NCBI GenBank assembly: GCA_949746255.1
Contig: CATKAP010000218.1
Coordinates: forward strand, 1 to 64,000
DNA length: 64,000 nt
Source: an uncultured bacterium
GTDB taxonomy: Bacteria; Bacillota; Clostridia; Christensenellales; Borkfalkiaceae
Direction: 5' to 3'
This document shows, piece by piece, positions 2,338 to 25,276 of this stretch. How positions within the stretch are numbered: position 1 is the first letter of the stretch; each line of letters begins with the position of its first letter. The position numbers were made by a program, and so were the translations under genes. The notes under the pieces were generated by a model. That model did no database searches. It worked only from the letters and a program-made list of their open reading frames with translations, and was not told the origin of the DNA.

Positions 2338-3501
2338 ATGAGAAAATTCGTAAATAAAAGAGCCGCTTCTTTACAACCGAGCGGAATAAGAAAATTTTTC
2401 GATATCGTGCAGAGCATGGAGGGCGCGATATCTTTAGGCGTAGGCGAACCCGATTTCGTTACGCCGTGGAATGTGCGTGACGCGGCTATACGTTCGTTGA
2501 GGCGCGGATATACGCAATACACCGGCAATCGCGGACTTCCGGAGTTGCGAAATTTAATTTCGCAATATCTGGTAAAACGTTTCGGAATAGACTATCCAGC
2601 CGAGAGAATAATAGTAACCGTAGGGGCGAGTGAAGCGATAGACCTTACTATTCGCGCCGTATGCGATGAAGGCGACGAAATACTTATACCCGAACCGTCA
2701 TACGTGTCTTACTATCCCGCGGTATGTCTTTCCGGAGGCGTTCCCGTTCCTTTAAGTTGCCGTGCGGAGGACGGCTTTGCCGTAACGCCAGAACTTATTG
2801 AAAAAGCCGTAACGGCGAGGACCAAAGCAATAATTTTACCCTATCCGAATAATCCTACGGGCGCGGTTATGACGGAAGAGCAATTGCGTGAAATAGCGCC
2901 GGTGATAGAGAAGTATGATTTGTTGGTTATTTCCGACGAAATATATGCGGAACTTACTTATACGTGCAAACACTGTTCTGTCGCGGCGATAGGAAAAATG
3001 CGCGAAAGAACTGTATATATCGGGGGGTTTTCAAAAGCGTTCGCTATGACGGGGTGGCGCGTTGGCTTTGTTTGCGCGCCCGCGGAAATAGACGAAGCTA
3101 TGTTGAAAATACATCAGTATACAATACTGTGCGCTCCGCAAATGAGTCAGCGCGCGGCAATTTGCGCGTTGAAAGAGGGGTTCGAGGACGATTTTTCCAC
3201 TGTGGCCGAAATGCGTGAAGAATACCGCAAAAGGGGTAATTTTCTTGCCGGAGCTCTGGAAAGGCTGGGGTTGCAGTGCGCAAGACCGAAGGGAGCGTTT
3301 TATTTGTTTGTTTCAGTTGAGTCTACGGGAATGGACGGGGAAACTTTTGCAAACAAACTTTTGAAAAATCAGAAAGTAGCGGTGGTTCCCGGCGGCGCGT
3401 TCGGAAACGCAGGCAAATATTTTGTAAGAGCAAGTTATGCGACAGGAATGCAACAGCTTGCGGAAGCGGTGAACAGGATTGAAAAATTTTTAGGTAAATA
3501 A
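2338..3501 (+). CDS. PLP-dependent class I/II aminotransferase
   Basis: PYPNNPTGAV, SDEIYAELTY, GGFSKAFAMTGWRVGF motifs. Confidence 0.93.
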   Translation: MRKFVNKRAASLQPSGIRKFFDIVQSMEGAISLGVGEPDFVTPWNVRDAAIRSLRRGYTQYTGNRGLPELRNLISQYLVKRFGIDYPAERIIVTVGASEAIDLTIRAVCDEGDEILIPEPSYVSYYPAVCLSGGVPVPLSCRAEDGFAVTPELIEKAVTARTKAIILPYPNNPTGAVMTEEQLREIAPVIEKYDLLVISDEIYAELTYTCKHCSVAAIGKMRERTVYIGGFSKAFAMTGWRVGFVCAPAEIDEAMLKIHQYTILCAPQMSQRAAICALKEGFEDDFSTVAEMREEYRKRGNFLAGALERLGLQCARPKGAFYLFVSVESTGMDGETFANKLLKNQKVAVVPGGAFGNAGKYFVRASYATGMQQLAEAVNRIEKFLGK

Positions 3502-3521
3502 TCGCTGTTCGGCTGTTTTTA

Positions 3522-3550
3522 TTGACAAATTAAAGCCGAAACTATATAAT
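3522..3550 (+). promoter_or_regulatory. consensus sigma-A promoter upstream of greA
   Basis: TTGACA (3522-3527), 17-bp spacer, TATAAT (3545-3550). Confidence 0.85.
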
Positions 3551-3565
3551 AATGTAGTCGCAGAC

Positions 3566-3600
3566 GTGATTCCGGCCGAGTTTCGGGGTCACTTTTGTTT
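3566..3600 (+). terminator. hairpin plus T-rich tail in greA leader (attenuator-like)
   Basis: GTGATTCCGG/TCGGGGTCAC 10-bp stem with G-U pairs, followed by TTTTGTTT, about 10 nt after the predicted TSS. Confidence 0.5.
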
Positions 3601-3671
3601 ATATTTTCGACAATTAAATAATAATTCTTGATAAATAAAAGCGCCAACGCGCTAAAAAGAGGTGTTTTGTA

Positions 3672-17936: not shown

Positions 17937-19013
17937 TCAATAGTAAACTTCTTCTATTACGCCGCCGCCGAGGCAGTGGGTTTCGTCGTAAAATACGGCG
18001 TATTGTCCTTCGGTTACCGCGCGCTGGGTTTCGTCGAATTCCACAGTGGCGGTGTCGCCGTTTACGCCGACCTTAATTTTCTGTTCGGGTTGGCGGTAAC
18101 GGAATTTAGCTGTGCAAAATTGCGTTTGACGCGGCATATATCCAATCCAATTTAGCCCCGAAACTTTACATGCCTTTGAATACAGAGGGCTTTCGTCGCC
18201 GTGGGAAACATATAGAATATTGTTTTTCAAATCCTTTTTCACTACAAACCATCTGCCTTCTTCGCCGTGAACTCCGCCGAGGTCAAGTCCCTTTCTCTGC
18301 CCTATGGTATAATACATAAGGCCGATATGCTCGCCCACGGTTGCACCGTCCAACGTCACTATTTTTCCCTTTTGGGCGGGCAGATAGGTCTTTAAAAATT
18401 TGCGGAAATTTCTTTCCCCTATAAAACAAATTCCCGTGGAATCCTTCTTTTTCGCCGTTGCAAGACCTTGTTTTACGGCAATGTCGCGCACTTCGGATTT
18501 ATCGAGTTCGGAAAGGGGAAAAAGAACGTTTTCAAGTTGTTTTTCGCGTACCTGATTTAAAAAATAAGTTTGGTCTTTACCTGAGTCCTTAACTTTTTTT
18601 AAAAAAATTCTGCCGTTTATTTCTTCAACGCCGCAATAATGCCCCGTCGCTATATAATCCGCGCCCATAGAAAGCGCGTAGTCGCGGAAAGTTCCGAATT
18701 TTATTTCGCGGTTACAAAGCACGTCGGGATTAGGGGTTCTGCCCGCCTTGTATTCGGAAAGGAAGTAGGAAAACACTCTTTCGGCGTATTGCTTTGCGAA
18801 ATTCACGCTGTAATACGGAATGTCGAGAGTGGCGCATACTCTGCGCACGTCGGCGAAATCTTCGTCGGCATTGCATGCGCCGTTGGGGTCGGTTTCTTCC
18901 CAATTATACATGTATAACCCTATAACGTCGTATCCTTGTTGCTTTAAAAGATACGCCGCCACGGATGAATCTACTCCCCCGCTCATCCCTACGACAACTT
19001 TTCCTTTCGACAT
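17937..19013 (-). CDS. mnmA: tRNA 2-thiouridylase MnmA
   Basis: [17 protein letters not shown]-loop, [24 protein letters not shown]. Confidence 0.96.
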
Positions 19014-19253
19014 AAATTACCTCGAATTTTCTTTTGAAAAACATTATATCATAATAAAATAGTATTTGCAATTCTTTTGAATTATGGTATAATGTAACGG
19101 GTCGCTTCCTATGAACGGCGAATAACGGCGTGGAGCTGCGCTTTTTTCAACGTGCGTTTTCCGACTTTGTCGGCGATAAGACGAAAAACCCGCCCGCCTT
19201 GTTCCGCTTGTTTTTGGAAACAGACGAATTATTTTATTGGTATTATTTTTGCT

Positions 19254-19433
19254 ATGATTTTGCCCGACGACGATTATATATTACTGTCTTTGATAAATAC
19301 CGCTTTACGCGATAAATACGATTCGTTGGAATTTTTATGCGAAGAAGAGGGCGTAAACATGGCAGAAATAACCGCGCGGTTTGCCGCTTTGGGTTATAAA
19401 TACAACGGAAAATCGTTCGTATATTCGGAGTAA
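19254..19433 (+). CDS. DUF4250-like small protein
   Basis: MILPDDDYILLSLINTALRDKYDSLEFLCEE resembles DUF4250. Confidence 0.75.
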   Translation: MILPDDDYILLSLINTALRDKYDSLEFLCEEEGVNMAEITARFAALGYKYNGKSFVYSE

Positions 19434-19435
19434 TT

Positions 19436-20095
19436 ATGAGAGTTATAGATATAGAAAAATGGGAGAGAAGAAAATCATACCTTTGGTTTTCGGGTTTTTC
19501 CAATCCCACTTATTCTATTACCGTGCGGTTGAACGTTACCAAATTAATCGGGTTTAAAGGTAAGTATAAAAGCGATTTCTACGCCGATATGCTTTATTTA
19601 ACGATAAAAGCGCTAAATTCCGTATCCGCTCTGAAATTAAGGGTTGAAGGACAGAACGTGGTTGAATACGAAGCTCCCGCACCTTCTTTTACCGTAGCGT
19701 TGGAAAACGGGCTGTTCGACGTTTGCCGCGTAGAATGGATTGAAAACCCCGATATATTCCGCAGGCAAGTGCGCGAAGGCATAGAAAAAACAAAAAAAGA
19801 GGGAGGCAACAAAGGTTTCGGCGACGACAAGCACGACGTGTATTATTTTTCCTGTTTGCCGTGGTTGGATTTCACGGAAGCCACAAATCCCATTCCGGAC
19901 GATAAAGAATCTTTAAGCGTGCCACGCATAAGCTGGGGAAAATATGTTGAGAACGGCAACGGATACGAAATGAGTATGAATATAACGGTAAGTCACGCGC
20001 TTGTGGACGGAAAACCGCTGTGCGACGTATTTTACGCCGTTCAAAAAAATTTAGATAATTGCGAAAGTTTACTTAACGGGGAAAAACATGAGTAA
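19436..20095 (+). CDS. chloramphenicol acetyltransferase-family protein
   Basis: CAT fold pattern with catalytic-type VSHALVDG motif (canonical HHxxxDG). Confidence 0.85.
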   Translation: MRVIDIEKWERRKSYLWFSGFSNPTYSITVRLNVTKLIGFKGKYKSDFYADMLYLTIKALNSVSALKLRVEGQNVVEYEAPAPSFTVALENGLFDVCRVEWIENPDIFRRQVREGIEKTKKEGGNKGFGDDKHDVYYFSCLPWLDFTEATNPIPDDKESLSVPRISWGKYVENGNGYEMSMNITVSHALVDGKPLCDVFYAVQKNLDNCESLLNGEKHE

Positions 20096-21464
20096 AGTTT
20101 TTATAGCTTGGAGCGGAAATTTGGAAACCGCGAAAAAACTCGGAGAATATATTTCCAAAAGGGCGGGGTATGAAGCTATAGTGGGCGGAAACCTCCACGA
20201 TTTGAAATCCAATTATGTAGGCGGCACAATTATCGAACAGATGAAAAAGTGCGACCAAGGAATTTTGCTTATTCAGAAAAACGACGCGAGCGCGTTGAGC
20301 GCCAATCTTATGTTTGAATGGGGTTATCTGCTTGCAAAACTCAACGCCAACAAAATACATAACTATTTGATAAATCTCGAACCGAACGACAGCGCGTTGC
20401 CCAGCGATTTGCACGGCGTATGGTCTTATTCGTTGAAAACCGAAAATTTAACAGAGGAAGAAATAGTCGAAAATCTCGGCAATAAGTTTTTCAATTCGCA
20501 AAAAAATACGGTTAATACCAATAAAATGACATTGATACATAGCCGCGATGAAACGAGGCGCTTTGTCAGAGAACATAACGGCGACCCCACATGTTCGAAT
20601 TATGAAATGGCGCAGTATGTTTTGTGTTATATTTACTGCGCGTATATTTACGAAGATTCCCGCGAAGAAATCTTGGAAGATCTGCAAAAATTTTTAAAAG
20701 AACTCAGTCCCAACGCCAAACAGTCGGCAGAATTGTTCGCAAGTTTAAAGTGCGCTATAAATTCGGTAAAGCTGTATAAAAAAGTACGTTTTACGGGCGA
20801 CGAGCAATATATTATGCTCGATGATTTTTACGAAATAAGGGACGAATACGAAGACATTTTAAGTTTGCTTTACGATATGGACGAAGGCGAAGTAAAGGTA
20901 ATGCTTCAAGCTTTAATTTACGGTTTTATAGTATATCTTTATTTGCTTGTTCTTAACGGTAAAGAATTGGAAAGCGATAAGCGCGCCGAATATTGCAAAA
21001 GGCTTTTGGGTTTCGCCAAACAGACGGAAAAATATATAAACGAATTTTGCGACGCGGCGCCCGAACAGAATAAACAGTTTTGCGAACTTTTGCGTTCATA
21101 TATTTACCGCAATATGTTCTGTGCGCTTACTATGCTGGAAAATTTGGAAAGTAAGGGAGACGTTCCGCGCACGCAGGATTCTGACGAGAGAAAGGAAATT
21201 ATTTTAGAAAATCTTAAAAATTCTTTGGAACAGCGTAGACGTCTTTACAGTTTTTATAAAGACGGAACGGCGAGTATTACGTTTATCAATAATATTGAAA
21301 TGGAATATTTTCTTGCGCTTGCGGAATTCCGTTTGTACGACGCGGACGCGATTTCGCGCGAGGAGAGCAGAAAACGTTTGAGCAGGTATGTGCAGAAAGT
21401 TGAACGCTATGCTGCGGAAAAGAGAATTTTTACCGAAAAAATAAAAAGATATATAGAAAATTAA
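20088..21464 (+). CDS. TIR-like nucleotide-binding domain protein with long helical C-terminal domain
   Basis: KVFIAWSGN, GGTIIEQMKKCDQGILLI, LMFEWGYLLAKL, LPSDLHGVW resemble the TIR-like PF10137 family; starts inside the end of the CAT-like gene. Confidence 0.75.
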   Translation: MSKVFIAWSGNLETAKKLGEYISKRAGYEAIVGGNLHDLKSNYVGGTIIEQMKKCDQGILLIQKNDASALSANLMFEWGYLLAKLNANKIHNYLINLEPNDSALPSDLHGVWSYSLKTENLTEEEIVENLGNKFFNSQKNTVNTNKMTLIHSRDETRRFVREHNGDPTCSNYEMAQYVLCYIYCAYIYEDSREEILEDLQKFLKELSPNAKQSAELFASLKCAINSVKLYKKVRFTGDEQYIMLDDFYEIRDEYEDILSLLYDMDEGEVKVMLQALIYGFIVYLYLLVLNGKELESDKRAEYCKRLLGFAKQTEKYINEFCDAAPEQNKQFCELLRSYIYRNMFCALTMLENLESKGDVPRTQDSDERKEIILENLKNSLEQRRRLYSFYKDGTASITFINNIEMEYFLALAEFRLYDADAISREESRKRLSRYVQKVERYAAEKRIFTEKIKRYIEN

Positions 21465-21490: not shown

Positions 21491-21566
21491 GCGCCCGTGG
21501 TGGAATTGGATACCATAAAGGCCTCCGACGCCTTCGGTTCGGGTTCGAGCCCCGACGGACGCACCA
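21491..21566 (+). tRNA. tRNA-Arg (anticodon CCG)
   Basis: Acceptor GCGCCCG/CGGACGC (one C-A mismatch), anticodon stem AAGGC/GCCTT with loop CTCCGAC, T-arm TCGGG-TTCGAGC-CCCGA, encoded CCA. Confidence 0.88.
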
Positions 21567-23792: not shown

Positions 23793-25276
23793 TTAAAGCT
23801 CCTGATAAAGTTTGAACGCGTTTTTAAGCGCGGGATACAGTTGTTTAAAAATTGCGTATCTTTTTTCGTAACCCGCCGCCGCTTTTTTGTCGGGGGTTAC
23901 CGTTTGCGTAATACTTATAAGTTTTTCCACCGCAGACTGAACGGTGGAGTATTCCCCGCACGCTACCATGGCGAGAATCGCGCCGCCGTAAGCGGGTCCT
24001 TCCTGCGTTTTCGGCGTTTCTACGGGCATATTCAACACGTCTGCGATTATTTGCCTCCACAGCGGGCTTTTAGATCCTCCGCCGCATATTCGCGTGCCGC
24101 TTATCTTAGTTCCGTTTGATTTAGCTACTTCAACGCAGTCGCGCAGAGCGAACGCCACGCCTTCCATAACCGCGAGAGTCATTTGCATGCGTGTGGTAGT
24201 GGGGCGTAAGCCTATAAACGCTCCGCGGGCGTTGGTATCGTTGTGAGGGCTTCTTTCTCCCATTAAATACGGCATAAAAAAAGTGTCGTTTTCGCCGCGC
24301 AATTTATCCGCGCCTCGCTGTTCGGCGGAAAATTCGGTAGTTTTAAGTACGTTTTCCATCCACCATGCGTTGCAGCTTGCAGCTGAGAGTATACAGCCCA
24401 TAAGGTGATATTTTCCGTTCGCGTGCGCGAACGAATGCAGAGCGTTGTTGTCGTCTACGGAAAAATTATCGTTCGATATAAATACCGTGCCGCTCGTACC
24501 GAGAGAAATATTGCAATCGCCGTCATTTATTGTACCCGTTCCAATAGCCGCCGCGGCGTTGTCGCCCGCGCCCGCGCAAACAGTTACTTTATCGGAAAGT
24601 TGCAGCTCTTTTTTAACGCTGTCCAAAAGCGTTCCTACGGCGTCGTACGATTCGTAAAGACGGGGCAACTGAGTTTCTTTAACTCCGCATATCTGAAGCA
24701 TATCCGCGCTCCAACGTTTGTTTTTGACGTCGAGAAGAAGAGTGCCGCTTGCGTCCGAGTAATCGGTTGCGAATTTTCCGGTAAGGCGGTAACAATATAG
24801 TCTTTAGGCAACATTATTTTATCTATTCGTTTAAAGTTTTCGGGTTCGTTTTCCCTGAGCCATAGTATTTTTGGCGCTGTGAAACCCGCAAACGCGATAT
24901 TTGCCGTGCGCACGGATAGAACTTTGCGGCCGATAACTTCGTTTAAGTATTCCGTTTGCTTTTCGGTTCGCCCGTCGTTCCATAATATACACGGGCGAAT
25001 TACCGTGTCGTTTTTATCCAAAACGACCAATCCGTGCATTTGTCCGCCTACGCCTACGCCCTTTACCGCGGACTTATCATGACCTACCAAAAGCCGCATA
25101 ATGCCGCCTATAACGCCCGAATACCAATCTTCGGGGTTTTGTTCGCTCCACCCGTCGCGAGGGTAGTGTACCTTATAGGTCTGAGTAACAGAATTTATTA
25201 TTTTGCCGTCCGCCGTAACCAATAGAAGTTTGACGGAAGAAGTTCCCAAGTCAATACCGATATACATATTTTTCAT
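23793..25276 (-). pseudogene. xylB: xylulokinase, disrupted by a -1 frameshift
   Basis: N-terminal ORF 24635-25276 (GIDLGTSSVK...KIMLPKDYIV) and C-terminal ORF 23793-24701; conceptual YIV[Y]RLTGKFATDYSDASGTLLLDVKNKRWSADMLQICG restored by inserting one base near 24791. Confidence 0.9.

Follow-up and report, generated by a model that had tools for sequence, protein, structure and literature searches.

A CatA-like acetyltransferase gene kept beside a CAP12-type TIR gene: a candidate two-gene immune-type signalling module in an uncultured Borkfalkiaceae bacterium

The window analysed here, a stretch of 64,000 nucleotides from an uncultured bacterium of the Borkfalkiaceae (contig CATKAP010000218.1), carries two overlapping genes of the same strand between mnmA and a tRNA-Arg(CCG) gene (Table 1). 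The first encodes a CatA-like O-acetyltransferase (CAT) and the second a protein in which an N-terminal TIR domain is followed by an all-helical domain. Both open reading frames and their 8-nt overlap stand as given in a preliminary description of the sequence, and the islet position that it assigned to the pair is real, except that a small DUF4250 gene also lies between mnmA and the CAT gene. The promoter-like site that could drive the three genes has 10 of 12 matches with an extended -10, in a region where 11 such sites were seen and 7.4 would be expected by chance. Elsewhere in the window (23793-25276, reverse strand), a xylulokinase-like gene located between xylA and the transketolase gene is split into two overlapping open reading frames of 213 and 302 aa in different frames, by a frameshift that may be real or may come from the assembly.

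Table 1. Location of the gene pair, its functional positions and its neighbours in the window
Feature	Position	Strand	Basis or remark
mnmA	17937-19013	-	left of the DUF4250 gene
Promoter-like site, candidate driver of DUF4250-CAT-TIR	19065-19093	+	consensus match only
DUF4250 gene	19254-19433	+	59 aa; Pfam 1.9e-16; between mnmA and CAT
CatA-like O-acetyltransferase (CAT) gene	19436-20095	+	219 aa; Pfam CAT E 8.8e-20
Clade-specific Arg164 codon of CAT	19925-19927	+	invariant in 27/27 linked CATs
Catalytic His187 codon of CAT	19994-19996	+	within the CAT gene
TIR + TPR-like protein gene	20088-21464	+	458 aa; starts 8 nt before the end of the CAT gene
TIR domain (residues 1-137), CAP12/Pycsar type	20088-20498	+	PF10137 1.4e-10; 7un8 (SfSTING) 3.7e-6; Foldseek 9lmq prob 1.00
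E77 codon (aligned to catalytic Glu84 of SfSTING)	20316-20318	+	alignment; invariant in 39-row alignment
D107 codon (aligned to Asp110 of SfSTING)	20406-20408	+	alignment; invariant in 39-row alignment
C-terminal all-helical domain (residues 146-458), TPR-like solenoid, putative sensor	20523-21461	+	AlphaFold, Foldseek
tRNA-Arg(CCG), right edge of the insertion site	21491-21566	+	ARAGORN

The pair is inserted between the DUF4250 gene and the tRNA-Arg(CCG), at a site left empty in the majority of relatives examined. Of the same-genus relatives examined that lack the pair, nearly all have these two neighbours 15-258 nt apart; here the distance is 2061 nt. The DUF4250 gene is an ancestral neighbour of the insertion site and stands outside the module, since relatives without the pair also carry it between mnmA and tRNA-Arg. 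In three other genomes (G074, G060 and G055) the pair also lies beside mnmA with the same tRNA-Arg downstream, an extra peptidase gene being placed between them in G055. The inserted element itself carries no integrase. Integrase-like or resolvase-like genes are located beyond the same tRNA-Arg(CCG) in relatives (loci L156, L169 and L153), marking it as an integration hotspot. Presence is patchy, in 14 of about 90 same-genus genomes and in 2 of 391 in the class, one of the two being that of the window.

The N-terminal part of the second protein belongs to the CAP12/TIR-STING type of TIR domain, as judged from its sequence and from profile comparison. The Pfam family CAP12-PCTIR_TIR (PF10137) covers residues 3-114 with 41.7 bits against a curated cut-off of 24.7, so that the TIR-like N-terminus recognised beforehand is confirmed. 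The single protein used as query found no match among solved structures; the family profile was needed to reach SfSTING. In the AlphaFold model, which was computed from a 39-member alignment (pLDDT 91.1, pTM 0.84), the TIR domain is followed by about a dozen helices, and Foldseek pairs the TIR part with TIR-STING, which bears out the TIR fold. The glutamate of the FEWGY motif, proposed earlier as a candidate catalytic residue, is E77, and in the profile alignment E77, N73 and D107 correspond to E84, N80 and D110 of SfSTING. In that protein Glu84 is catalytic, and Asp110 of one subunit completes the active site of the other subunit in the dimer (PMC9402430). Competence of the window protein as an NADase is well supported at the level of aligned residues, because these three are matched to SfSTING and are also invariant across the 39-row family alignment. 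Among PADLOC models, the TIR part alone is matched by PDC-S35 (2.5e-6) and by a TIR effector model (0.0019).

The C-terminal ~310 residues had been described as about 300 aa of predicted helices without a recognised domain; this part is indeed unmatched in Pfam (no credible match in residues 138-458), and yet its shape is recognisable. AlphaFold predicts confidently a helical solenoid, and Foldseek relates it to the TPR domains of LGN, Pins and kinesin light chain with probabilities up to 1.00 and E-values of ~4e-3 to 1e-2, no match with the PDB being obtained at E ≤0.001. A viral fold search returned generic helical repeats only. With Foldseek E-values of that weakness, the domain is best described as TPR-like and as a putative sensor. 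The helical domain was also seen without the TIR domain on a 4-kb metagenome contig (L113, 936-3908, forward strand), in frame with a Shango SngC helicase and adjoining SngB/BrxD. This joining may be a real fusion, by which the helical arm is tied to a defence system, or else a chimera of the assembly; an intact family member was not found in the rest of that assembly.

The preliminary description had called the first protein a CAT-family enzyme from its VSHALVDG motif, and the call is correct: the motif is the HxxxDG active site, and the 219-aa protein scores 72 bits with Pfam CAT (PF00302; cut-off 23.5). A profile of the CATs linked to TIR genes matches CAT-III structures at 5e-39, and the homology to the type A chloramphenicol acetyltransferases CAT-I and CAT-III is full-length. 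The catalytic His187, the transition-state Ser139 (Ser or Thr within the family) and the structural Asp191 are retained in the alignment with CAT-III. The linked enzymes differ from CAT-I and CAT-III, and from the 16 unlinked CATs that branch beside them, in a small set of residues: R69 and R164 are present in 27/27 linked and 2/16 unlinked CATs, and P24, P152 and W167 are likewise invariant in the former and mostly not in the latter. R164 aligns with position 172 of CAT-III (numbered by counting from the printed alignment), which is Ile in the wild type and Val in 1qca, and Ile166 of saCAT1, the equivalent of CAT-III Ile172, lines the chloramphenicol pocket (PMC12549896). Hence, because an invariant arginine replaces a hydrophobic pocket contact, the acceptor is probably anionic rather than chloramphenicol, an argument drawn from one pocket position (R164) and R69. 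An ordinary chloramphenicol resistance gene that happens to lie next to an unrelated TIR gene would account for the family membership, but it is hardly credible given 77.8 bits with NCBIfam chloram_CatA against a cut-off of 270, the arginine in the drug pocket and the conservation of the pairing. The CAT (window 19436-20092) is also matched at 1.5e-23 by phrog_12857, a PHROGs family without assigned function, which indicates that phages too encode CatA-like proteins.

The pairing of the two genes is beyond chance. Homologues of the TIR protein occur in 16 of 150 relatives, and in 12 of these 16 a clear CAT gene stands immediately upstream, that of the window not counted. Among 84,980 species genomes scanned, 52 TIR-family loci were found, mostly in Clostridia, with others in Erysipelotrichaceae, Bacilli, Spirochaetota, Actinomycetota, Planctomycetota, Bacteroidota and one alphaproteobacterium, and the two genes are neighbours in some two dozen bacterial genomes besides that of the window. 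In the family tree the CAT gene is directly upstream in 27 of 53 rows, all of them within one 37-member clade (0/16 outside it), so that the CAT-TIR association put forward for survey is kept far beyond the window genome. At linked loci the CAT gene precedes the TIR gene in every case, on the same strand and with a gap of -11 to +133 nt (median ~12 nt). Pairwise distances of CAT and TIR proteins in the linked set correlate with r 0.75, a value reached in 0 of 2000 permutations, and with r 0.63 in the larger subclade; since host relatedness contributes to r, the correlation speaks for long joint inheritance and not for contact. The CAT is not strictly required, because it is absent from 10 of the 37 clade members, in which no CAT remnant was found; apparently several losses or replacements of the CAT have left the TIR protein intact.

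Where the operons hold further genes, these are enzymatic, and CAT-less members of the CAT clade can have other enzymes, of sugar or nucleotide type, in tight operons. A HAD phosphatase gene lies upstream of the CAT gene in five distinct loci. A Lachnospiraceae locus without CAT (L067, 5371-9365) carries a TIR_2 gene, a small membrane protein gene, a nucleoside hydrolase gene and a CAP12-type TIR gene, separated by short gaps or overlapping, and an ion-channel-like gene is located upstream of this run. In another locus without CAT (L070), genes for a membrane protein, a TIR_2-NagB-like fusion, a HAD protein and the TIR protein follow in series beside an integrase-like gene; in the fusion (2340-3626) TIR_2 is joined to a glucosamine-6-phosphate deaminase-type domain with NagB similarity at 1e-7. 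Each single association could be due to chance, nucleoside hydrolase and cytidine-deaminase-like genes being seen at two loci each; a small-molecule role for the TIR partner is plausible because partner enzymes are exchanged among loci. A membrane protein of ~700 aa with a possible RyR-like C-terminus is encoded near several family members (L087:5255-7333, L099:5228-7333, L070:141-2336, L109:1590-3566, L111:11547-13643), and in two of the loci its gene lies directly upstream of the CAT gene. The RyR-like identity of this neighbour was left out of the claim, as the similarity is weak (RyR1 at E 0.0082 by profile, Pfam RyR at E 1.5) and the model poor (pLDDT 50).

Comparison with described systems places the TIR domain close to known effectors and the pair apart from known modules. 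The TIR domain has in common with the CBASS TIR-STING proteins (Cap12, SfSTING) the PF10137 family, the aligned conserved catalytic Glu, the pocket Asn and the dimer-mate Asp. It differs from them in that the TIR domain is N-terminal and is followed by a TPR-like solenoid in place of STING, and a cyclic-nucleotide sensor (STING, SAVED) is not found on the protein. No CD-NTase gene accompanies it in the operon and no SMODS (CBASS-type) cyclase was matched in the available assembly, which is 86.5% complete, so the earlier conclusion that this is no standard CBASS holds. PycTIR of Pycsar is of the same TIR family, and one family member (L082) matches the PADLOC PycTIR model at 8.2e-5, whereas the partner here is a CAT; within this locus the adjacent CAT, DUF4250 and tRNA genes leave no PycC cyclase. 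Thoeris (ThsA/ThsB) also combines a TIR with a second protein, and the L070 operon contains a second TIR with weak ThsB similarity; but the window TIR is of the CAP12 type with no ThsB match in Pfam or PADLOC, and no ThsA-like partner adjoins it. The single-protein defences SpbK and Swarozyc (DUF4062) likewise link a TIR-type NADase to a sensor arm, with possible direct sensing of phage proteins, although their TIR subfamily and sensor differ and a CAT partner is not reported in the papers searched. The PADLOC candidate PDC-S35, a model of 278 positions, has its matching TIR-like part at the C-terminus and does not match the solenoid; no CAT model was matched. With the pair itself PADLOC gave no match beyond the TIR domain, and a CAT-TIR system was found neither in PADLOC nor in the open literature searched. 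No acyltransferase known to us makes the signal in a bacterial immune system.

An anti-phage function is somewhat favoured. The patchy presence argues for it, as do the TIR subfamily and the fact that the insertion site is a variable one. An enrichment in defence islands, suggested earlier as a sign of such a role, was not found: most flanking genes are of housekeeping type, and among 104 of them scanned at E 1e-10 no more than four PADLOC families were detected, with one flanking gene each. No family member was recovered from phages with the window TIR as query or from plasmids with the L082 TIR as query, and viral-contig collections gave no relative.

Our leading reading, which comes near to an even chance and is offered tentatively, is a two-gene immune-type signalling module in which a TIR-NADase is the effector, the TPR-like domain its sensor and the CAT the enzyme that sets its threshold. 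The TIR domain would be inactive until the TPR-like C-terminal domain is engaged, with phage as the putative trigger. The engaged domain would then cluster the TIR domains, Asp107 of one copy completing the site around Glu77 of its mate, and the active TIR would destroy NAD, so that the infected cell stops growing. The CAT would be an active acetyl-CoA-dependent O-acetyltransferase with an anionic acceptor, probably nucleotide- or sugar-phosphate-like, and may make or edit a small molecule, or a protein state, that sets the threshold of the TIR protein. The effector part of this reading is strong; the signal step and the role in defence we infer. As to the partner, the best reading is that it is exchangeable and makes or edits a small-molecule ligand of the TIR effector. 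Possible but doubtful is immune signalling by acetylation proper, in which the CatA-like enzyme would use CoA as donor of an acetyl or other acyl group for a nucleotide-type molecule, and the TPR-like arm would read the species so acylated or de-repressed, sister loci using a nucleoside hydrolase, NagB-like/HAD proteins or a second TIR instead.

In the main rival to the module reading, which we consider rather unlikely, the TIR protein senses and acts by itself: its TPR-like arm would directly bind a protein of the phage, and the CAT would be an accessory enzyme that, for example, modifies the trigger or limits self-damage. The 16 of 53 members outside the CAT clade, solo or with unrelated neighbours, and the absence of the CAT from 10 of 37 members within it are in its favour, and precedents exist, as a phage portal activates SpbK, Swarozyc assembles with the portal and the TPR domain of Avs4 binds a portal; it does not account, however, for a single CAT subfamily, in which R69 and R164 are invariant, being kept beside the TIR over deep divergence. 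Improbable is a toxin-antitoxin pair, the TIR being toxic by default until neutralised by CAT binding or acetylation and freed when CAT function is lost during infection. The constant upstream and often overlapping position of the CAT gene is the usual antitoxin-first order, but the TIR is intact without CAT in many genomes, with several independent cases in the CAT clade, and a simple binding antitoxin does not need a complete CAT active site. Little chance is given to a non-immune metabolic or stress module adjusting the use of NAD and acetyl-CoA; housekeeping surroundings with few defence genes near would suit it, but the patchy presence, the insertion at a variable tRNA site and the characterised PF10137 TIRs, which are CBASS and Pycsar effectors, speak against it.

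If the module reading is right, some genes annotated as chloramphenicol acetyltransferase may not be resistance genes, and the arginine at the pocket position could help to separate non-resistance CATs in resistance surveys. Moreover, bacterial immunity would gain a TIR-NADase module whose partner enzyme has no precedent and whose sensor arm is new, and acetyl-CoA-dependent chemistry on an immune ligand would be indicated.
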